A stretch of DNA of 64,000 nucleotides, from contig NZ_JAHWDQ010000002.1 in assembly GCF_019312595.1 (NCBI RefSeq), positions 248,001 through 312,000 on the forward strand, in the 5' to 3' direction. The notes beneath the pieces were generated by a model, which was given only the letters and a program-made list of their open reading frames with translations, searched no databases and was not told where the DNA came from. Both the position numbers and the translations under genes were made by a program. Within the stretch, counting starts at the first letter, position 1, and each line of letters starts with the position of its first letter. The stretch is from Zhongshania aquimaris (GTDB lineage: Bacteria; Pseudomonadota; Gammaproteobacteria; Pseudomonadales; Spongiibacteraceae). Shown here one piece after another: positions 8,614-59,847 of this stretch.

Positions 8614-9564
8614 CTACAATCCCATGCGCAGCTTTAGGTCCCGAGGGTATGGGGTGAAGTAATACTGGTCCAATAGATAGTCAACTTGGTATTTCTTTAA
8701 AAACATACCGAGCATTTCCAGTGGCACTAATAATGGAAGCAGTCCTTCCGAGTAATCTCGAATAACCTCACTGAGTTGCGCCTTGTCACTGGCATCGAGG
8801 TGCTCTTTAAAGAAGCCTTGGATGTGCATAAGCGTATTGGTGTGGTTTTTAACGCTCGCGGGGTGCCGAATTGCTTGCATAAATTTACTAATGTAGCGAT
8901 CGCCAATTTCATTTACGTCGCCCGCCTCTGCGACAATCGGCCCCAATTCGCGGTATATAGGTTGATTGTGCGCTAGCAGCAAAAATTTGTGGCGGCGGTG
9001 AAAGTCCTGCAATCGTTTCACACTTAGTCCCTCGGCGGCCATGGCTTGCCAGCGAGCATAGGCAACAACGCGCAAAACAAAATTTTCCCGCAGATGTACA
9101 TCGTTTAAGCGGCCGTTTTCTTCCACTGGCAGCAGCGGATGAGCGGCCATTAATTGTTTCGCGAACAGTCCTACGCCTACTTTGCCTAGTCCGACTCCGT
9201 TGTCTGAGTAAACAGGTACCCGCTCCATTCCGCAGCTAGGTGATTTTGCGCAAAGAATATAGCCACTGATGTAATCGAGTGTCGCCACCGAGTCGCGGGC
9301 GAAGACCGTCATTTTTTCGGTCACGTCCAAGCTACTGTCTGAGCTTCCGACTAAGCGCGGGCTGTCAGGATCGCCAACGAGTCTAATTGTCGGGCGTGGC
9401 ACACCCATGCCGATGGCTTGTTCAGGGCAAATTTTGACAAAATCGAAGTGGCGAGCAAGCTCATCAGAAGCGAAGGGCAAACGCTTGTGGCCGCCGTCGT
9501 AACGCACTTGCTCGCCGAGTAAGCAGGCGCTAATACCAATACGGATAGCTGGCGTGTCAGACAT
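8614..9564 (-). CDS. DUF523-DUF1722 fusion protein (YbgA-like)
   Basis: Two-domain protein of 316 residues. The DUF523 half (residues 1-150) has the conserved cysteines in SACLLGEQVRYDGGHK, the CPE element and CAKSPSCG. DUF523 proteins include the iron-sulfur thiouracil desulfurase TudS. The second half (about 185-305) is DUF1722, the YbgA domain, of unknown role. It is the upstream partner of phrB with a three-base gap. Inference: a role in nucleobase or DNA-damage metabolism, from the cysteines and the photolyase link; the exact substrate is unknown. Confidence 0.88.
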   Translation of the reverse strand: MSDTPAIRIGISACLLGEQVRYDGGHKRLPFASDELARHFDFVKICPEQAIGMGVPRPTIRLVGDPDSPRLVGSSDSSLDVTEKMTVFARDSVATLDYISGYILCAKSPSCGMERVPVYSDNGVGLGKVGVGLFAKQLMAAHPLLPVEENGRLNDVHLRENFVLRVVAYARWQAMAAEGLSVKRLQDFHRRHKFLLLAHNQPIYRELGPIVAEAGDVNEIGDRYISKFMQAIRHPASVKNHTNTLMHIQGFFKEHLDASDKAQLSEVIRDYSEGLLPLLVPLEMLGMFLKKYQVDYLLDQYYFTPYPRDLKLRMGL

Positions 9565-51234: not shown

Positions 51235-52995
51235 CTAAATAGTCCAGTTCGGTGTGCCACCCTCTTCCGATTTTGCATTCTGGGCAAGAATTTTTTGAAC
51301 GCCAAGGTGGTGAGACAGAAAAATTTCACCACTTAAATGCTTTATAAAATCTGTTGTTAAAAGGATGTCGCTTACCGGCCCTTTAACTTCAGATAAATGC
51401 AGCTTAATTTCACTGTCACTTAATCGCTGGTTGATGGATTCCAGCGCGTCTAAAGCGCTAAGGTCAATTTCATTCACTGCGGTACACATTAAAATAACGT
51501 GACGTATTGCGGAATTTTTTTCTATAAGTTCGTAAATCTTATCTTCGATAAATCCGGCGTTGGCAAAATATAAGCTTTCATCAATGCGCAGAGAAAGAAT
51601 GTCACTGTGGGTGATTACTTTGTGGCGATTCACATTGCGATAGTGTTCTGTACCGGGAACTTCGCCAACTACCGCCATATGCGGCGTAGAGGTTTTATAT
51701 AAATGTAGGGCGAGAGAGGCAAACACGCCGCAGGCAACGCCACTTTCTACACCGGCAAGTAGAGTGACTAATAAGGTGGTACTTACAGCAATAAAATCAC
51801 TGCGGGCGTAGCCCCAGCTTTTTTTCAGTATGGAGAAATCTACTAGCGATAGCACCGCGACAATGATCGTTGCTGCTAAGGTTGCCTTGGGTAAATAGGC
51901 GAGATATGGCGTAAAAAATAGGGCGGCTAGTCCAATACCCACGGCGGTGAATATGCCTGCGGCAGGGGTCACGGCGCCGGCATCAAAATTGACGACTGAG
52001 CGCGCAAAGCCGCCAGTGACAGGGTAACCGCCGGAAAATGCGGCAGCCACATTGGCGGCACCTAAGCCAATAAGCTCTTGATTTGGCGTGATTTTTTGGC
52101 GCCGTTTAGCGGCTAGGGTATGGCCCACAGAAACGGATTCAACAAAGCCAATAACAGAAATAAATATGGCAGAGACGAGTAGTTCACGCCACGCGCTATG
52201 GTCTAAGCTTGGAATTTGTAGGCTGGGTAAACCGCTTGGAATGTCGCCGACAAGTTTCACGCCATGCTGGCCAAGGTCAAAGGTGTAGGCTGCAATACTG
52301 GTTGCAATGATACCCATGACGGGCCCCGTTTTTGACAGCATTCCAGCGGCTTTATCACCTAGACCAAATCGCATTAGCAAGGGCTTCAAGCCGCTGCGAA
52401 CCCAGAACAAAAATGCCAGTACGGGAAGACCAACGGCTAGGGTGTAGAGATTGGTATTCGCAATTTCATTGAGTAATGCCGTTAGTAAATGAAATAAATT
52501 TTCGCCTGATGCACTAATGCCTAAAATATGTTTTAACTGACTTACCGCAATAATAATTCCCGATGCGGTAATAAAACCTGCAATCACAGGATGAGATAAA
52601 AAGTTCGCTAAAAATCCCATCCGTAAAATGCCCATACCCAGCAAAAACATGCCGGAAAGCAGCGCTAGTAAAAGTGCGGCTTCAATATAGCTGACGCTGC
52701 CCGGCGCTGCGATATGTCCGATGGCAGACGCTGTCATGAGGGAGACAACGGCAACAGGTCCTACAGATAGCGTGCGGCTGGTGCCGAAAATAGCGTAGGC
52801 CACAAGAGGAAGCATACTCGCATACAAGCCCATTTCCGGAGGCAGTCCCGCTAGCAGCGCATAGGCCAAAGATTGGGGAATGAGCATGATGGTGACGATC
52901 ACCGCCGCTAACAGATCGCTAATCAAGGTGTCGCGTTGATAGTCCGCGACCCACGTTAGAATCGGAAAGTAGGATTTAATCGCTTTTATTTTCAA
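51235..52995 (-). CDS. SulP-family inorganic anion transporter with STAS domain
   Basis: Protein of 586 residues with 12-14 membrane helices (DLLAAVIVTIMLIPQSLAYALLAGLPPEMGLYASMLPL is the classic SulP opening) and a carboxy STAS domain (about 440-560; SLRIDESLYFANAGFIEDKIYELI, HVILMCTAVNEIDLSALDALESI). SulP carriers move sulfate, bicarbonate or other oxyanions. It is the last of five leftward genes starting with cydA, 11 bases after the SQR-fusion gene. Inference: it handles a product of sulfide oxidation (sulfite, sulfate or thiosulfate); bicarbonate remains possible. Confidence 0.92.
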   Translation of the reverse strand: MKIKAIKSYFPILTWVADYQRDTLISDLLAAVIVTIMLIPQSLAYALLAGLPPEMGLYASMLPLVAYAIFGTSRTLSVGPVAVVSLMTASAIGHIAAPGSVSYIEAALLLALLSGMFLLGMGILRMGFLANFLSHPVIAGFITASGIIIAVSQLKHILGISASGENLFHLLTALLNEIANTNLYTLAVGLPVLAFLFWVRSGLKPLLMRFGLGDKAAGMLSKTGPVMGIIATSIAAYTFDLGQHGVKLVGDIPSGLPSLQIPSLDHSAWRELLVSAIFISVIGFVESVSVGHTLAAKRRQKITPNQELIGLGAANVAAAFSGGYPVTGGFARSVVNFDAGAVTPAAGIFTAVGIGLAALFFTPYLAYLPKATLAATIIVAVLSLVDFSILKKSWGYARSDFIAVSTTLLVTLLAGVESGVACGVFASLALHLYKTSTPHMAVVGEVPGTEHYRNVNRHKVITHSDILSLRIDESLYFANAGFIEDKIYELIEKNSAIRHVILMCTAVNEIDLSALDALESINQRLSDSEIKLHLSEVKGPVSDILLTTDFIKHLSGEIFLSHHLGVQKILAQNAKSEEGGTPNWTI

Positions 52996-53006
52996 GTTTA
53001 TATTTC

Positions 53007-54671
53007 CTAGGCTTCATCGCTCATTACTGGCTTTACCAACCACTCTTTACCTTTGAGCATACCGCGCCAGTAAATGGGCGGTAGTAATTTTTCTTTTAAA
53101 AACCACGCTGCGCGTGTTGGCTTGGTGCCGTCAATGATCCATTTCGGAAAACTCGGTAAAAGTGTGCCGCCGTATCCGAATTCAGCCAATACAATTTTTC
53201 CACGCTCTACTGTTAGCGGGCAGGAGCCGTAGCCATTGTATTTCGCGACGAGGTGGTCACCTTTGATGTCGGCAATAATATTAGCAGCCACAATTGGTGC
53301 TTGTACCCGTGCTGCGGCAGCGGTTTTGGCGTTGGGGGTATTGGCTACGTCGCCCAGCGACCAGATGTTGCTATAGCGCTTGTGGCGAAGGGTATATTGA
53401 TCTACATCTACCCAGCCAGCGTCGTCTACTAGTGGACTGCTGCGGATAAAATCGGGTGCGGTTTGCGGCGGACAAACGTGGATCATATCAAATTCGCGGC
53501 TAATAATTTCGGTGCTGCCATCGCCGGTGGTGGTTTCAAAGTAAGCTGTCTTTTTGTCGCCGTCGATACGGACCAGTTTGTGATTAAATTTTAATTCGGT
53601 CTGGTATTTTTTGACGTACTCCATTAATGCCGGGACGTAGTCGGCCACCCCAAAAAGCACAGCGCCAGCGTTATAAAATTCGATATTAATATTTTTTATG
53701 TTTTGATTTTTGAGCCAGTAGTCGCCAGACAAATACATGGCTTTTTGTGGCGCCCCTGCACATTTAATCGGCATGGGTGGTTGGGTAAATAAGGCGCGAC
53801 CCCCTTTTAAGTTGCGAACCAGATCCCATGTGTAAGGTGCAAGGTCATAGCGGTAATTAGAGGTGACGCCATTGCGCCCCAGGGTTTCGCTGAGTCCTTC
53901 GATTCCAGCCCAATTTAGTTTTATACCGGCGGCAACCACAAGGCGCTGGTATTTAATGAGTCGACAGCCTTCAAGAGTAACGGTGTTACTGTCCGGGTTG
54001 AAGGTAGCAACCGCGGCCTTTATCCAATCGGCGCCTCTGGGAATCAGCGACGCCATATCGCGCATGGTTTGCTCAGGCGTAAATATCCCAGCGCCAACCA
54101 AGGTCCAGCCGGGTTGGTAATAGTGTTTGTCGGCCGGATCTATAATCGCTATTGATAGTGCTTTGTTTCTGGCTAGCAAGCTGGCAGCCGTCGAGATACC
54201 CGCTGCGCCGCCCCCAACGATAAGCACATCGTAGCTTTTCAACGCTTGCATTTCGCCGCTGTTGCCGGCAATTCGAGCGGCTACACCGCTCATGTCGTAA
54301 CCCGCTTCTTTGGCCGTGGCAACAATGTCAGCCAGCGGTAGCTGCTTGGCTTGGTTCAGCGCCCACAGGGTAGTGGAACGCATACCGCTGCGGCAGTAAG
54401 CGTGAATAGGACCGTCTTGCTGAAGTAATTTGCCAAAGGCGGTGGCGTCATCATCGCTCACCTTACCGGTGATCACTGGTAGGTAGTGGCATTGAATATG
54501 GTGTTCCTCGGCGGCTTTTGCTATTTCAGAAAATAGCGGCTGATCCGGGCCTTCGCCGTCTGGGCGATTGCAGATAATGGTCCGAACTCCCCGTATGGCA
54601 AGCTCGCTAATATCACTGCTAAGCAGTTGATCGGAAACGCTTATATTTGCATTTAATTCTTTAATGTTCAT
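53007..54671 (-). CDS. Sulfurtransferase (TIGR01244/Blh-type) fused to sulfide:quinone oxidoreductase-like flavoprotein
   Basis: Bifunctional protein of 554 residues. Residues 1-110 are the TIGR01244 phosphatase/rhodanese-like domain with active loop CRSGMR (Cys93-Arg98), able to carry a persulfide. From about 143 an SQR-type flavoprotein follows: VLIVGGGAAGISTAASLLA (FAD), YYQPGWTLVGAG, CAGAPQKAMYLSGDYW (a redox cysteine), and the terminal WFLKEKLLPPIYWRGMLKG. SQR oxidises sulfide and passes electrons to quinone, leaving a persulfide that the fused domain could accept. It sits 30 bases after the persulfide dioxygenase gene. Confidence 0.9.
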   Translation of the reverse strand: MNIKELNANISVSDQLLSSDISELAIRGVRTIICNRPDGEGPDQPLFSEIAKAAEEHHIQCHYLPVITGKVSDDDATAFGKLLQQDGPIHAYCRSGMRSTTLWALNQAKQLPLADIVATAKEAGYDMSGVAARIAGNSGEMQALKSYDVLIVGGGAAGISTAASLLARNKALSIAIIDPADKHYYQPGWTLVGAGIFTPEQTMRDMASLIPRGADWIKAAVATFNPDSNTVTLEGCRLIKYQRLVVAAGIKLNWAGIEGLSETLGRNGVTSNYRYDLAPYTWDLVRNLKGGRALFTQPPMPIKCAGAPQKAMYLSGDYWLKNQNIKNINIEFYNAGAVLFGVADYVPALMEYVKKYQTELKFNHKLVRIDGDKKTAYFETTTGDGSTEIISREFDMIHVCPPQTAPDFIRSSPLVDDAGWVDVDQYTLRHKRYSNIWSLGDVANTPNAKTAAAARVQAPIVAANIIADIKGDHLVAKYNGYGSCPLTVERGKIVLAEFGYGGTLLPSFPKWIIDGTKPTRAAWFLKEKLLPPIYWRGMLKGKEWLVKPVMSDEA

Positions 54672-54701
54672 CGTAATTCCCTGACCGTTTGGGTGGGTGC
54701 T

Positions 54702-55595
54702 TTAGAGCAGGTTCAGCGGCAGTTTAAGGTAGACCACCTCATTGGTGTCGGCCTTGGGTAAATGGCCTGCGCGCATATTTACCTGCAGGGATGGCAAAAT
54801 CAGTCTGGGCATACCTAGGGTTGCGTCGCGCTTTTCACGCATGGCAACAAAGTCACTTTCGCTAATCCCCTGGTGAACATGAATATTATGTTCGCGCTCT
54901 TGCTTGACGGTGGTCTGGTACTCAACGTCACGATCATTAGGCATGTAGTCGTGACACATGAAGAGACGAAGATCGTCAGGTAAGGACAGAATGCGCTGGA
55001 TGGACTGGTATAAGGTTTTGGCGTTGCCACCCGGGAAGTCTGCGCGCGCGCTGCCGCCGTCGGGCATAAATAAGGTGTCGCCAACAAAACCCGCGTCGCC
55101 CATGATATGGGTCATACACGCCGGTGTATGGCCGGGGGTGTGCAGGGCGTGGCAGCGCATTTTGCCAACGAAGTATTCGTCGCCATCGTTAAATAGATGA
55201 TCGAACTGGGAGCCGTCGCGGCAGAAGTCGGTGCCCTCGTTAAAGATTTTGCCAAAGGTGTTTTGCACTGTGGTGATCTCGGCGCCAATGCCAATTTTGC
55301 CGCCCAGTTTCTCTTGAATATAGGGCGCGGCAGACAGGTGGTCGGCGTGGACATGAGTTTCTATTATCCACTGCAGCTCTAGGTTTTGACTGCGGATATA
55401 GTCGATGACTTTGTCTGCGCCGTGCAGGCTGAGTCGGCCTGCGGCGTAGTCGATTTCCATTACCGAGTCGATCACCGCGCAGGCATTTGACGCCGGATCT
55501 TTTACCACATAGGTAAAGGTGTTGGTGGGTTCGTCAAAAAAAGCCAGCACGTCAGGGCTGGTGCTCATGTCAGTGTTAAAAGCTAGTGTGCTCAT
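54702..55595 (-). CDS. Persulfide dioxygenase (ETHE1/Blh family metallo-hydrolase)
   Basis: MBL-fold enzyme of 297 residues that oxidises glutathione persulfide to sulfite. The metal motif is ETHVHADHL (HxHxDH), with further ligands in HALHTPGHTPACMTH, VGDTLFMPDGGSARADFPGG and FMCHDYMPNDR; the sequence resembles the Blh/PDO type II group. The start is the ATG at 55595 (MSTLAFNTDM); the frame extends to 55664 into cydB and is rejected there. It lies 19 bases after cydB and is the functional partner of the SQR fusion encoded next. Confidence 0.93.
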   Translation of the reverse strand: MSTLAFNTDMSTSPDVLAFFDEPTNTFTYVVKDPASNACAVIDSVMEIDYAAGRLSLHGADKVIDYIRSQNLELQWIIETHVHADHLSAAPYIQEKLGGKIGIGAEITTVQNTFGKIFNEGTDFCRDGSQFDHLFNDGDEYFVGKMRCHALHTPGHTPACMTHIMGDAGFVGDTLFMPDGGSARADFPGGNAKTLYQSIQRILSLPDDLRLFMCHDYMPNDRDVEYQTTVKQEREHNIHVHQGISESDFVAMREKRDATLGMPRLILPSLQVNMRAGHLPKADTNEVVYLKLPLNLL

Positions 55596-55614
55596 TATAA
55601 ATATCCTATTAAGT

Positions 55615-56607
55615 TTATTCGTAAGACAGCGCGGTCGCTTTGCCATGAAATATTCGATAGACAAAAAAGGTGTAAAACAAAATGACGGGTAGGGTGATGA
55701 CTACGCCCACTAAGGTAAATTGCAGCGATTTCACTGAGGCGGCGGACTCCCATATTGTGAGGCCACCAATAACGATGTCAGGGAAAATACTATAGGCCAG
55801 TCCTAAGCTCGCCATTAAGCAGATAGCGACGGTGCAGGCAAAGATCAGCCAGCTATAGCCTTGCTTGAGAACGGAAGTCTTATTTAGTGCCACTACAATG
55901 ACGCCATAGCAAAATACACAGACCATTGGGATCGGCATTAAGTACAGGGCGTTCGGCAGGGTAAACCATTTTTCGGCAATGCTACTGCTCACCATCGGAG
56001 TGGCGATAGACACCATAAAAAGCCCCAAACCCATTGGCCAGATTGCCATGCGCGCCCAGCCGATGGCTTTATTGCGCAAATCGCCGTCGGTTTTCATCAG
56101 TAGCCAGCCGCAGCCTAGGATTAGGTAGAGGGCGGGTAGGGTCATGGCGATGAGTGCGGAGAATAATAGGCTGGTGGTGGAACTTTGCAGACCGGTGATA
56201 TAGGCGCCGAGCATCCAACCTTGGGCGACCGATGCAATCAGGGAGCCGCCGAAAAATGCCTTATTCCATAGGCCGCGACGGTGGTCGCCCGCCTTTACCC
56301 GTAAATCAAAGGCGACGCCGCGCAGAATTAAACCCATTAACATGAGGGTCACGGGTAAATACAAGCTGGTGAGAATAATACCGTGGGCGACGGGGAAGGC
56401 GATCAGTAGCACGCCAATACCCAGTACGATCCATGTTTCGTTGGCGTCCCAGAATGGCCCAATGGAGGCGATCATCATGTCCTTTTCCGCTTCGTCAGCC
56501 AGCGGTACAAGCAGACCGACGCCAAGATCGTAGCCGTCGAGAATGACGTAGATCAGCAGAGCGAGGCCCATGATGCCCATGTAAATGATTGGCAGCCAAT
56601 ATTCCAT
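55615..56607 (-). CDS. cydB: Cytochrome bd-type quinol oxidase subunit II
   Basis: Integral membrane subunit of 330 residues with about eight helices. Family marks are LPIIYMGIMGLALLIYVILDGYDLGVG and IGPFWDANETWIVLGIGVLLIAFP, plus the carboxy LPVILFYTFFVYRIFHGK. It pairs with CydA to reduce oxygen with quinol. No cydX-like small gene is evident between cydB and the persulfide dioxygenase gene (19 bases). The three-base gap to cydA shows coupled expression. Confidence 0.95.
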   Translation of the reverse strand: MEYWLPIIYMGIMGLALLIYVILDGYDLGVGLLVPLADEAEKDMMIASIGPFWDANETWIVLGIGVLLIAFPVAHGIILTSLYLPVTLMLMGLILRGVAFDLRVKAGDHRRGLWNKAFFGGSLIASVAQGWMLGAYITGLQSSTTSLLFSALIAMTLPALYLILGCGWLLMKTDGDLRNKAIGWARMAIWPMGLGLFMVSIATPMVSSSIAEKWFTLPNALYLMPIPMVCVFCYGVIVVALNKTSVLKQGYSWLIFACTVAICLMASLGLAYSIFPDIVIGGLTIWESAASVKSLQFTLVGVVITLPVILFYTFFVYRIFHGKATALSYE

Positions 56608-56610
56608 TGC

Positions 56611-57972
56611 TCAGGCCTCCTTGTTTGTAGTTTGGGGTGCGCTCACTGCTGTGAGGCTAAGCGACGCAGCGGGTTTGCGTGACAGGTTGAGCAGGGCGCC
56701 AATATAGGAGGCCAGTAAAAAGCCATAGAGCAAGATATAGCCGATCAGGGTGCCGCCAACCGTTGCGCTGCTGTGGTCTGCTACTACGTCTTGCACCTTG
56801 AGCACACCGCTCACAATCCAGGGTTGGCGACCAATCTCGGTAACATACCAGCCTGCTAAAACGGCGACCCAGCCTGAAAAGGTCATGGCCGAGAGGGCAT
56901 ATAGCAGCGGTTTTGTTGGGGTTTTGTTATTTCGCAGCTGCCAAGCCGCCCACCACGACACTAGCAGCATCAAGCCGCCTACCGCCAGCATCACGCGAAA
57001 CGACCAAAACACGATGGCGACGGGGGGATGCTCGCCTTCAAATTCGTTAAGACCTTTTACTTCGCCCATGGGGTCGTGGGTAAGAATGAAGCTTGCCGCG
57101 TAGGGCACTTCAATCGCGTAGCGGTTGCTGCGAGTGTTATCGTCGGGCAGTGCAAAAATCGTGAAGGGCGCGCCTTTCTCGGTTTCCCACACCGCTTCCA
57201 TTGCGGCGATTTTGGCGGGCTGATGCTCCAAGGTATTCAAGCCGTGAAAGTCGCCGACCAGTATTTGAATAGGGGCGAGTACGGCGGCCATCATCACGCC
57301 TGTTTTCATCACCTTCCAAGTGGCGGGGCCGTCGACATTGCGCAGCGCCCGCCAAGCGCTCACACCTGCAATCACAAAGGCAGAGGTCAGCAGGCAGGCA
57401 ATAAGCATGTGGAAAAAGCGGTAGGGGAACGACGGATTGAAGATCACTTCCATCCAGCTGTCTACCATAACCACGCCGTCCTCTAGGTGATAGCCCGCGG
57501 GGGTTTGCATCCACGAGTTAAGGCTGAGAATCCAGAACGCCGACAAGGTTGTGCCAAAGGCCACCAGAAACGAGCTGATTAAATGCATGCGGTTAGACAC
57601 ACGGTCTTTGCCGAATAACATAATGCCGAGGAATGAGGCTTCCAGGAAAAACGCGCTGAGCACTTCGTAGCCCAGCAGGGGGCCGGCCACATTGCCGGCT
57701 TTTTCCATAAAGCCCGGCCAGTTGGTGCCGAACTGAAAGCTCATGGTAATACCAGACACCACCCCCATCGCGAAGGTCAGGGCAAAGATCTTTACCCAAA
57801 ACAGGTAGGCATCCTCCCACGCTTGGTCGCCGGTTTGGGTGAAGCGTAAACGAAAGAACAACAGAACCCAGGCCAGGCCAATGGAGATGGCGGGGAATAA
57901 AATATGAAAGCTTATATTGGTCGCAAATTGGATGCGGGCCAAAATGAAGGGGTCGAAATCCATATTGATCAT
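56611..57972 (-). CDS. cydA: Cytochrome bd-type quinol oxidase subunit I (short Q-loop, CIO-like)
   Basis: Heme-bearing subunit of 453 residues. Heme ligand region: RIQFATNISFHILFPA (His for b595). Other marks are FQFGTNWPGFMEKAGNVAGPLLGYEVLSAFFLEA, DFHGLNTLEHQPAKIAAMEA and the quinol-site motif EIGRQPWIVSGVL. The chain is much shorter than E. coli CydA (522), so the Q-loop is short, as in cyanide-insensitive oxidases (cioA). bd oxidases are known to resist sulfide, which fits its place at the head of a sulfide-oxidation operon. ATGs at 57972 and 57963 are both possible starts. Confidence 0.94.
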   Translation of the reverse strand: MINMDFDPFILARIQFATNISFHILFPAISIGLAWVLLFFRLRFTQTGDQAWEDAYLFWVKIFALTFAMGVVSGITMSFQFGTNWPGFMEKAGNVAGPLLGYEVLSAFFLEASFLGIMLFGKDRVSNRMHLISSFLVAFGTTLSAFWILSLNSWMQTPAGYHLEDGVVMVDSWMEVIFNPSFPYRFFHMLIACLLTSAFVIAGVSAWRALRNVDGPATWKVMKTGVMMAAVLAPIQILVGDFHGLNTLEHQPAKIAAMEAVWETEKGAPFTIFALPDDNTRSNRYAIEVPYAASFILTHDPMGEVKGLNEFEGEHPPVAIVFWSFRVMLAVGGLMLLVSWWAAWQLRNNKTPTKPLLYALSAMTFSGWVAVLAGWYVTEIGRQPWIVSGVLKVQDVVADHSSATVGGTLIGYILLYGFLLASYIGALLNLSRKPAASLSLTAVSAPQTTNKEA

Positions 57973-58050
57973 CCTAATGTGAGTTGCGCATTTGCTTTCG
58001 ATTCATCCGCTGGCTGTCACAATCTTCGCCTGTGGTACTTACCACCATAG

Positions 58051-58066
58051 AGCAATGCACATGCCA
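58051..58066 (-). promoter_or_regulatory. Sigma-54 promoter of the cydAB-pdo-sqr-sulP operon
   Basis: Read on the minus strand: TGGCAT-N5-TTGCT, with GG at -24 and GC at -12 in the exact ten-base spacing. This is close to the consensus TGGCAC-N5-TTGCA. The predicted start point is near 58040, about 68 bases ahead of cydA. It faces away from a divergent sigma-54 activator gene. Confidence 0.8.
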
Positions 58067-58171
58067 TGCATGTAGTACTTGTGGCTATGTGCAGTAAGTC
58101 ATTGGTTTATATATAGTATTTTATAAATCCGAAGAGCCTTGCCTAGTTTGCGCTGGTAAAACCTTTGCTTA

Positions 58172-58211
58172 ATTGTCATTATTGACAAAAATAAATGACA
58201 GAAATGACAAT
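58172..58211. promoter_or_regulatory. Upstream activator sequence for the FisR-like protein
   Basis: TTGTCA-N4-TGACAA at 58173-58188, then ATGACA at 58195-58200 and 58204-58209. The outer arms ATTGTCATT (58172-58180) and AATGACAAT (58203-58211) are perfectly complementary. The block lies about 132-171 bases upstream of the predicted sigma-54 start point, the normal place for an enhancer site. It is immediately before the regulator gene, so autoregulation is possible. Confidence 0.65.
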
Positions 58212-58214
58212 GCC

Positions 58215-59522
58215 ATGCAGCTCATAGCAAAAGACTCAGATAAAGACGTTGCCTATATGCTCGATGGTTTCGACTACCCAGCCATATTGGTGTCCGCCGA
58301 TTACAGAATACTGGCAACGAATGAACTCTACCGTTCAACATTCGGTGAAATTGACGTCGACAAGGAGGCGCGCTGCTATCAAGTCTCCCACGGTTATCAG
58401 GTGCCCTGTGATCAGGCGGGAGAAAGTTGTCCCTTACTTGCCTGCAAAAGCTCTGGCAGCAAGGAGCGAGTGCTACACGTTCACACGACGCCACGAGGCA
58501 AGGAGCATGTCGATGTAGAAATGCTGCCAATTCACGGTGAAGACGGCGAACTGAAGTATTTTGTCGAAATTCTAAAGCCGGTTCATATCGCCAGTGCAGA
58601 GCTGAGCACCCAAAATATGGTTGGCCGCAGTCCGGTTTTTAACGCGCTGGTTGAAATGATTAATTTGGTGGCGAGCAGAGACACCTCGGTATTATTGATG
58701 GGGGAATCTGGTACGGGCAAAGAATTAGCGGCCAAAGCCATTCATGAGGCCAGTAGTCGCAGTACAAGACCCATGATCACGGTTGAGTGCGCGGGATTGA
58801 CGGAAACCCTGTTTGAAAGTGAGTTGTTTGGCCACGTTAAGGGCGCGTTTACCGGTGCAACATCGAACAAGCGCGGTCTGTTAGAAAGCGCCGAGGGTGG
58901 CACCTTATTTCTGGACGAAATTGGTGATGTACCCTTGGGTATGCAGGTGAAATTACTGCGCTTAATTGAAACGGGCAGCTACCGAGCGGTGGGTAGCACC
59001 GAGCTCAAGCGCGCAAATTTTCGCTTGATATGCGCCACCCATAAAAATTTATCTAACAATGTAGCCAGTGGCGAATTTCGTGAAGATTTATATTATCGAA
59101 TTAATGCCTTTCCTATCGTCTTGCCTCCATTGCGTGAGCGTGGCGACGACATCGCATTGATTGCAAAATCGATACTCGAAAAATTCAGCAAAAAAGACAT
59201 GTATCGACTGACCGAGTCGGCGATCAAATTACTAGAAAAATGCAATTTTGCGGGAAATGTTCGCGAACTTCGCAATGTGCTCGAGCGCGCAATTATTTTT
59301 GCGCATTCGAATATTATCGATGTGAAAATACTGGAGCGGTGCATGCTAGATGTTCGTCCGCATAATGATAACAACGAAGACAAGTGGCAAGATTTAAAAT
59401 CAAAAGAGATGCAGTACTTGAATGAACTATTAGCGTTTTGCGATGGCGATAAAGCGCGGGCGGCGCATATAGCGGGCATTAGTCTGCGGTCGCTTTACAG
59501 AAAGCTCGGTGTCGTAAAGTAG
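58215..59522 (+). CDS. fisR: FisR-like sigma-54-dependent regulator with cysteine sensor domain
   Basis: Enhancer-binding protein of 435 residues. The amino PAS-like sensor (1-120) has Cys54, Cys65 and Cys72 (plus Cys76); spacing 11 and 7 equals Cys53/64/71 of the sulfane-sulfur sensor FisR of Cupriavidus (from memory). The AAA+ domain has Walker A GESGTGKE (162-169) and GAFTGA (209-214), the sigma-54 contact loop. A Fis-type HTH ends it ([22 protein letters not shown]). The ATG at 58215 is preferred; the TTG at 58173 would place the inverted repeats inside the gene. It is divergent from the cydAB-pdo-sqr operon it should activate. Confidence 0.87.
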
Positions 59523-59529
59523 CTTAGTA

Positions 59530-59847
59530 GTGAACACGATGATCGACGATGTTTGGTATAGCTGTAATCTTGGTGATGCCATGCTGGCCGATCCGGCCCT
59601 GGATCGAATAGAAGCGCAGGCCAGGGCGGTGTTTGCCAATGCAATAAACACAGATCAGTGTGCGGTGTACTACCGCCATGAGTCAAAAGAGCGTTTGCAC
59701 TGTGAGTTAGTGCTGTATTTTTCTCCCCTGGCAGCGCGGATGCCGATGGGTGCGGAGCTACAAGCCTGTGCTAAACCGGCCAGACAGGATTTGAGTATAC
59801 TCGTTGGCAAAGTGTCATCGTGGTCACTTCTGTTTCCTGACTCTTAG
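59530..59847 (+). CDS. Hypothetical protein downstream of fisR
   Basis: Protein of 105 residues from a GTG at 59530, or 102 from the ATG at 59539. No signal peptide or membrane helix is seen. The sequence (DVWYSCNLGDAMLADPALDRIEAQARAVF ... CAVYYRHESKERLHCELVLYFSPLAARM) is predicted alpha/beta and has four cysteines. It starts seven bases after fisR and is surely co-transcribed with it. I do not recognise the family. A role in the sulfide/bd-oxidase response is inferred from position only. Confidence 0.7.
   Translation: MNTMIDDVWYSCNLGDAMLADPALDRIEAQARAVFANAINTDQCAVYYRHESKERLHCELVLYFSPLAARMPMGAELQACAKPARQDLSILVGKVSSWSLLFPDS

Follow-up and report, generated by a model that had tools for sequence, protein, structure and literature searches.

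A window of 64,000 nucleotides from Zhongshania aquimaris (contig NZ_JAHWDQ010000002.1, positions 248,001 to 312,000; "the window" denotes this whole stretch) carries what is probably a single sigma-54-dependent operon that lets the cell cope with sulfide. Five leftward genes, cydA-cydB-pdo-(sulfurtransferase-SQR)-sulP, encode both subunits of a cytochrome bd oxidase, a persulfide dioxygenase (PDO), a fusion of a sulfurtransferase (ST) to a sulfide:quinone oxidoreductase (SQR), and a SulP anion transporter, and they diverge from fisR, which encodes a sigma-54 activator. Judged from sequence, the FisR sulfide regulon occurs here in a real and conserved form extended by a bd oxidase, and the case for it is strong on anatomy. 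The coordinates, strands, and gaps of the five-gene operon in the initial annotation all agree with the window sequence; the intergenic gaps, 3, 19, 30, and 11 bases in that order, offer no space for a promoter outside coding sequence.

Regulator, predicted promoter, and gene products

The fisR product comprises a PAS-like sensor with three cysteines, an AAA+ sigma-54 domain, and a Fis-type helix-turn-helix. The FisR cysteine spacing initially claimed for this activator is present as the triad C-X10-C-X6-C (spacing 11 and 7), which is also kept in 39/39 homologs from cyd-linked, cyd-less, and plasmid loci and in 27/27 of a class sample described below, or 66/66 in total. FisR sensor cysteines are numbered C53, C64, and C71, and Cupriavidus FisR is reportedly a sensor with three conserved cysteines (Li et al. 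2017). The genome also encodes rpoN. The true start of fisR is probably the ATG at 58215, because many homologs align only from about there and because a conserved box falls in the first codons of the longer open reading frame (ORF).

Control by sigma-54, also proposed in the initial annotation, holds at the sequence level, with a FisR-type activator facing the operon and a predicted sigma-54 promoter, recognized by consensus match, ahead of cydA. The fisR-cydA gap holds three features that are new here and conserved in relatives, namely a palindrome proposed as the FisR box, an IHF-like site, and the best sigma-54 match of the window, which ends 78 bases before the cydA ORF (Table 1). In 14 aligned genus regions, the few conserved blocks are TTGYCA/TGRCAA elements, the IHF-like site, and the -24/-12 element. 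The IHF-like site is weak by itself, with 68 such matches to the IHF consensus WATCAANNNNTTR across both strands of the window; the -24/-12 element was scored against the sigma-54 consensus. A broad sigma-54 scan of the window was too noisy for use alone, and a promoter and terminator scan of the window gave nothing above the shuffled level.

Across loci, sigma-54 scores of at least 13 occur within 400 bases upstream of cydA in 28/29 loci with cydAB first, and the one miss, L114, has a 14-point site farther upstream; the upstream maximum was 12.5 in a comparison set of 70 cydA genes (loci L097-L168). The core box TGYCA-N4-TGRCA stands beside fisR in 40/66 loci (shuffled mean 0.20, maximum 2), divided among cyd-first loci (23/28), cyd-last loci (2/5), pdo-sqr loci without cyd (7/9), and loci of the bd-I type (2/7), and the distance from box to -24/-12 element, start to start, is 119-122 bases in 11 of the 14 box-bearing genus loci; as related loci are not independent, these box and sigma-54 counts show conservation, not probability.

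Across the genome, the pattern TTGYCANNNNTGRCA has 22 strand-wise matches, compared with seven for a reversed control. Five places match on both strands, and the four besides that of the operon were set aside as further FisR targets, all lying inside ORFs (411, 616, 203, and 129 amino acids; the short ones are possibly not genes). Good -24 elements (TGGCAC/T) with TTGT or similar replacing TTGC at -12 were seen before pdo in L039 and L041-L044 and before cyd in L250, L303, and L307.

CydA has its best PDB sequence matches in subunit 1 of E. coli bd-II and bd-I, followed by the Bd-type quinol oxidase 5doq; it carries the GRQPW motif, and CydA and CydB match over their full lengths, as in short Q-loop cytochrome bd. 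An alternative cydA start, the ATG at 57963, is also possible. PDO matches the dioxygenase part of the NCBIfam bifunctional Blh family (NF040641, 8.3e-112) and falls below the whole-protein cut-off because the sulfurtransferase half is absent from this protein; it carries the HxHxDH motif as HVHADH, and its structure matches are PDB 9g8t, 4ysk, and ETHE1 4chl. The fusion protein joins a TIGR01244/DUF442 sulfurtransferase domain (residues ∼3-132; 117.7 bits, cut-off 85.85) to a sulfide:quinone oxidoreductase resembling human SQOR (residues 146-541), which it matches over the full length (∼4e-98), with the KCAGAPQK and SCPL cysteines, presumably the SQOR (type II) catalytic pair, aligned. Such a fusion is not new, as a plasmid relative is annotated "bifunctional protein tyrosine phosphatase family protein/NAD(P)/FAD-dependent oxidoreductase". 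SulP scores 441.7 bits against TIGR00815 (cut-off 380.45), and its best structure match is chloroplast sulfate transporter 4.1 (7lhv, 1.2e-102). A 105-amino acid ORF at 59530-59847, seven bases after fisR, ends the examined interval; it is matched in three close relatives (L033-L035) and has no Pfam, NCBIfam, or PHROG family match.

Table 1. Genes and predicted control elements of the operon, in window coordinates
Feature	Position	Strand	Details
cydA, bd quinol oxidase subunit I, short Q-loop type	56611..57972	-	453 aa; PF01654 4.5e-163
cydB, bd oxidase subunit II	55615..56607	-	PF02322 1.6e-77; 3-base gap to cydA
pdo, metallo-beta-lactamase-fold persulfide dioxygenase	54702..55595	-	PF00753 (Lactamase_B)
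ST-SQR fusion	53007..54671	-	BLH_phosphatase+Pyr_redox_2
sulP, SulP/SLC26 anion transporter with STAS domain	51235..52995	-	TTG start; Pfam Sulfate_transp+STAS
fisR, sigma-54 activator	ORF 58173-59522; proposed true start 58215	+	PAS_4+Sigma54_activat+HTH_8
Proposed FisR box, palindrome TTGTCATTATTGACAA	58173..58188	.	16 bases; single full match in 64 kb
IHF-like site, one mismatch to WATCAANNNNTTR	58095..58107	-	Inside block conserved in genus alignment
Predicted sigma-54 -24/-12 element TGGCATGTGCATTGCT	58051..58066	-	14.5/15 consensus score, best of whole 64-kb window

In the proposed mechanism, entry of sulfide would cause sulfane sulfur to accumulate and modify the three sensor cysteines of FisR, which, bound to palindromes about 120 bases upstream and aided by IHF bending, would activate RNA polymerase-sigma-54 at the -24/-12 element that precedes cydA, so that the whole cydAB-pdo-SQR-sulP message is produced. 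SQR would oxidize sulfide to persulfide and reduce quinone, PDO would convert persulfide to sulfite, and SulP would carry an oxyanion across the membrane. Cytochrome bd would re-oxidize the quinol with oxygen while heme-copper oxidases are inhibited by sulfide, both keeping respiration running and draining the SQR electrons. Co-transcription, sulfide induction, FisR binding, the enzyme activities, and the direction of transport are all predictions of this scheme.

Conservation across the genus, order, and class

An order unique to this genome by chance had been set beforehand as one result that would count against the proposal, and the genomes hold something else. The complete layout, fisR divergent (//) from cydAB-pdo-ST-SQR-sulP, is found in 14/18 genomes of the GTDB genus (G000-G017), among them one with other genes inserted (L042), and it occurs beyond the genus; recurrence across genomes rules out a chance neighborhood. 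Genome G005 has a second pdo-SQR-sulP copy (L047) with no cyd or fisR match in its stretch and a 15/15 sigma-54 match 251 bases before the pdo gene at 9220, so that control from the other locus is possible.

In the order sample, strict cut-offs matched pdo in 235/390 genomes and cydA in 194/390, and at least 33/390, picked by eye among the matches listed, carry both on one stretch, never more than 3,935 bases apart; 16 of these belong to the genus and 17 do not. In 15 of the 17 loci outside the genus, fisR adjoins the unit. Ten of these start with cydAB (L229-L238), and five have it last, in the order fisR//pdo-SQR-sulP-cydAB (L239-L243); SulP was unmatched in L234 and L235, as was the sulfurtransferase half in L229. 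The association of fisR with cydAB and pdo recurs in three families beyond its own, with cydAB before pdo or after sulP. A search with CydA gave 80 loci, of which five (L089, L090, L101, L114, and L136) have a pdo, SQR, or sensor-bearing FisR match near cydA, including the complete layout in a Cellvibrionales metagenome-assembled genome (MAG; L090). A further three loci match FisR through its AAA+ part alone, and on some short contigs no neighbors could be seen; with five of 80 so placed, most CydA relatives lie outside such operons. In two Burkholderiales MAGs (L101:6918-12416 and L136:3751-12362), pdo lies beside cydAB with no FisR match, and the pairing may occur under other regulators.

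Outside the genus, fisR//pdo-SQR-sulP also occurs without cyd (L048, L049, and L053), so cydAB looks like a part added to that module. In a CydA tree made by a quick method with SH-aLRT support only (144 rows, less 23 that were short or duplicated), one starred clade of 48 takes in every cyd-first and cyd-last row, but also unlinked Alcanivorax and Arenicella rows; many genus rows labeled "n" duplicate linked loci. The tree therefore does not favor one origin of the cyd link over several recruitments.

At the level of the class, Gammaproteobacteria, the FisR sensor domain was matched in 71/369 genomes at E 1e-8, and 27 places with E up to 2e-23 were examined, excluding the window's own and weaker rows of 24-38% identity. 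FisR faces pdo-like, type II SQR, and sulP genes in three of these loci and cydAB of the distantly related long Q-loop bd-I class in seven. In another 11 it faces type I SQR, and one of these 11 also has cydAB close by on the other strand. Several bd-I loci have 0.8-1.6 kb or an extra small gene between fisR and cydA, and two (L295 and L303) carry type I SQR downstream on the same strand. The L303 type I SQR has its closest matches in 3sz0 and kin (2e-181), chains that bear the name sulfide-quinone reductase, the source of 3sz0 being presumably Acidithiobacillus ferrooxidans, and the FisR-like ORF of this locus is the sensor alone (133 amino acids). On a plasmid of Pseudoalteromonas xiamenensis (L250), a triad-bearing FisR homolog faces cydP-cydAB-cydX-ybgE with no pdo or SQR matched.

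Some neighboring features are recorded here for their own sake. CydA and CydB of L250:3958-6669 form one frame of ∼903 amino acids annotated cydB, a possible cydA-cydB fusion, and at L300:6359-9016 the CydA match is confined to the C-terminal half of an 885-amino acid ORF. In L289:2427-3050, L291:7903-8496, and L307:7776-8378, the genes that FisR faces begin with one for a Tll0287-like (PF11845) protein, which precedes SQR or cydAB.

Pairing of FisR with bd oxidase is therefore recurrent. A broader proposal is marginally favored, in which the FisR family of Gammaproteobacteria would be a general switch for respiration that withstands sulfide, whether or not sulfide oxidation is included, having recruited bd oxidases of two classes more than once and acting through the operator TGYCA-N4-TGRCA. 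It is tempered by the seven bd-I loci, of which two have the exact box and three a sigma-54 score of at least 13, and by six of the 27 class loci, two on short contigs, where FisR faces none of the pdo, SQR, sulP, or cydAB genes.

Role of the bd oxidase and competing explanations

The initial annotation described the operon as having "its own" bd oxidase, and this did not survive as a claim of a dedicated extra enzyme: a CydA search of the genome matched only the operon protein, and a dedicated second bd oxidase is rejected on that ground. The genome also has two genes of the COX1 family, which includes nitric oxide reductases. Bd oxidases resist sulfide, and sulfide can induce them. E. coli bo3 is inhibited by sulfide with a half-maximal inhibitory concentration of 1.1 µM, and both E. 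coli bd oxidases are insensitive up to 58 µM (PMC4815019). As the genome has one bd oxidase and two COX1-family genes, it is plausible that the bd oxidase would be the one still working under sulfide.

Several observations weigh against a single operon that couples sulfide oxidation to its oxidase. Within the genus, cydAB in L042 is split from pdo by other ORFs, one on the opposite strand; G002 and G010 retain fisR//cydAB-pdo-sulP, but a search for both SQR types gave only FAD-domain matches of 25%; L046 of G001 retains only the sulfurtransferase half, with no fisR match in the stretch; and G007 lacks a cydA match and has fisR 4 kb from pdo. Outside the genus, L244 and L245 lack a fisR match and have a distant CydA (48-49%) after sulP. 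These SQR-less and fisR-less versions show the parts of the operon to be separable. The exact core box is missing in 5/28 cyd-first and 3/5 cyd-last loci, and the unlinked cydA of L216, among the closer rows, scores 13.5 upstream. CydDC, not treated as defining for the short Q-loop type, was not recovered, as no CydC in the genome exceeded the family cut-off (best 255.1 bits, cut-off 329.05), which leaves bd assembly unexplained, and sulfide tolerance of this short Q-loop oxidase is predicted from other bd oxidases.

The strongest competing explanation, possible at somewhat less than even odds, accepts the FisR operon and holds that cydAB only shields general respiration from sulfide, with SQR incidental rather than a partner. 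It draws on G002 and G010 and on loci in which FisR faces cydAB and the stretch has no match to pdo or SQR, namely five of the 27 class loci (L290, L292, L305, L306, and L307) and plasmid L250. However, most cyd-linked operons seen carry SQR, bd-I and type I SQR are paired on the same strand in L295 and L303, and the protective and partner roles are compatible. The initial proposal that the oxidase is a sink for SQR electrons may therefore describe one role, but not the whole reason for the linkage. Because cydAB remains linked to pdo in genomes without a detected SQR, protection of respiration appears to explain its presence at least as well as the draining of SQR electrons.

Separate control, with the sigma-54 promoter serving cydAB alone and pdo-SQR-sulP having its own promoter, is unlikely. 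Five loci (L039, L041, L042, L043, and L044) do have a wider cydB-pdo gap with a TGGCAC element and imperfect -12 about 95-124 bases before pdo, two of them (L039 and L042) with a CsoR/CstR-family repressor gene in that gap. Against separate control, the gap in the window is only 19 bases, no sigma-54-like match near its pdo scores above 11, and in two cyd-less loci from outside the genus (L049 and L053) the sigma-54-like site stands directly before pdo. The CsoR/CstR genes (PF02583; L039:6592-6873 and L042:5012-5347) fall short of NCBIfam cut-offs, and a second persulfide-type sensor is possible there. Less probable still is that FisR senses another signal, such as nitric oxide, cyanide, or low oxygen, and that cydAB is an ordinary stress oxidase. 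The short Q-loop bd oxidase of Chromobacterium offers a precedent, as it protects against nitric oxide, sulfide, and cyanide, and cyanide was the sole inducer among tested compounds in the accessible text (PMC11837568). Against this stand the three cysteines kept in every FisR homolog checked and the sulfide-oxidation genes, bd oxidase, or both faced by FisR in 21/27 class loci.

Known systems and significance

The closest described system is that of Acinetobacter baumannii, in which a divergent FisR drives pdo1-sqr-tauE-hsd, a pdo1-sqr-transporter operon with a predicted sigma-54 promoter whose sulfide induction is lost without fisR; cydAB is sulfide-induced, and a quinone link between SQR and CydAB was predicted (PMC7315123). 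Unlike the arrangement here, cydAB lies elsewhere (A1S_1433-1434), the accessible text reports no direct control of it by FisR, the transporter is TauE rather than SulP, and the operon has a candidate homoserine dehydrogenase gene (PMC7315123). The initial idea of a unit joining SQR to a bd oxidase thus stands as operon linkage, but the idea itself is not new, having been proposed for A. baumannii (PMC7315123).

Three conserved sensor cysteines are shared with Cupriavidus (PMC9774590), and C. metallidurans (L249) has FisR//pdo-sqr with the same cysteine spacing, but no CydA, CydB, or SulP match within 15 kb. In Methylophaga, the trio pdo-sqrB-sulP is the same as here but lies inside a methanethiol oxidase cluster (PMC6548844), and a Ruegeria plasmid has the same trio with no bd oxidase or FisR in the stretch. 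The cioRAB genes of Chromobacterium violaceum likewise encode a short Q-loop bd oxidase that is sulfide-protective and has its own local regulator, although that regulator is a GbsR/MarR-type repressor and the operon is cioR-cioA-cioB (PMC11837568).

These comparisons divide the initial suggestion that the bd oxidase and SulP are an undescribed extension. SulP is ruled out as a novel part, as pdo-(ST-)SQR-sulP without adjoining cyd occurs in other families, on plasmids, and in Methylophaga (PMC6548844), and it is a standard part of the pdo-sqr module. The claim stands for the bd oxidase: no description of cydAB within a FisR operon was found among the papers listed, judged by title, opening of the abstract, or passages, which is weak evidence of absence, as subscription journals were largely uncovered.

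In this operon, a single sensor and a single promoter appear to give one message for both the detoxifying enzymes and the tolerant oxidase, and the recurrence of the pairing, with oxidases of different classes and in different operon positions, suggests repeated selection. The SQR-less versions offer a direct way to tell protection of respiration from service to SQR.

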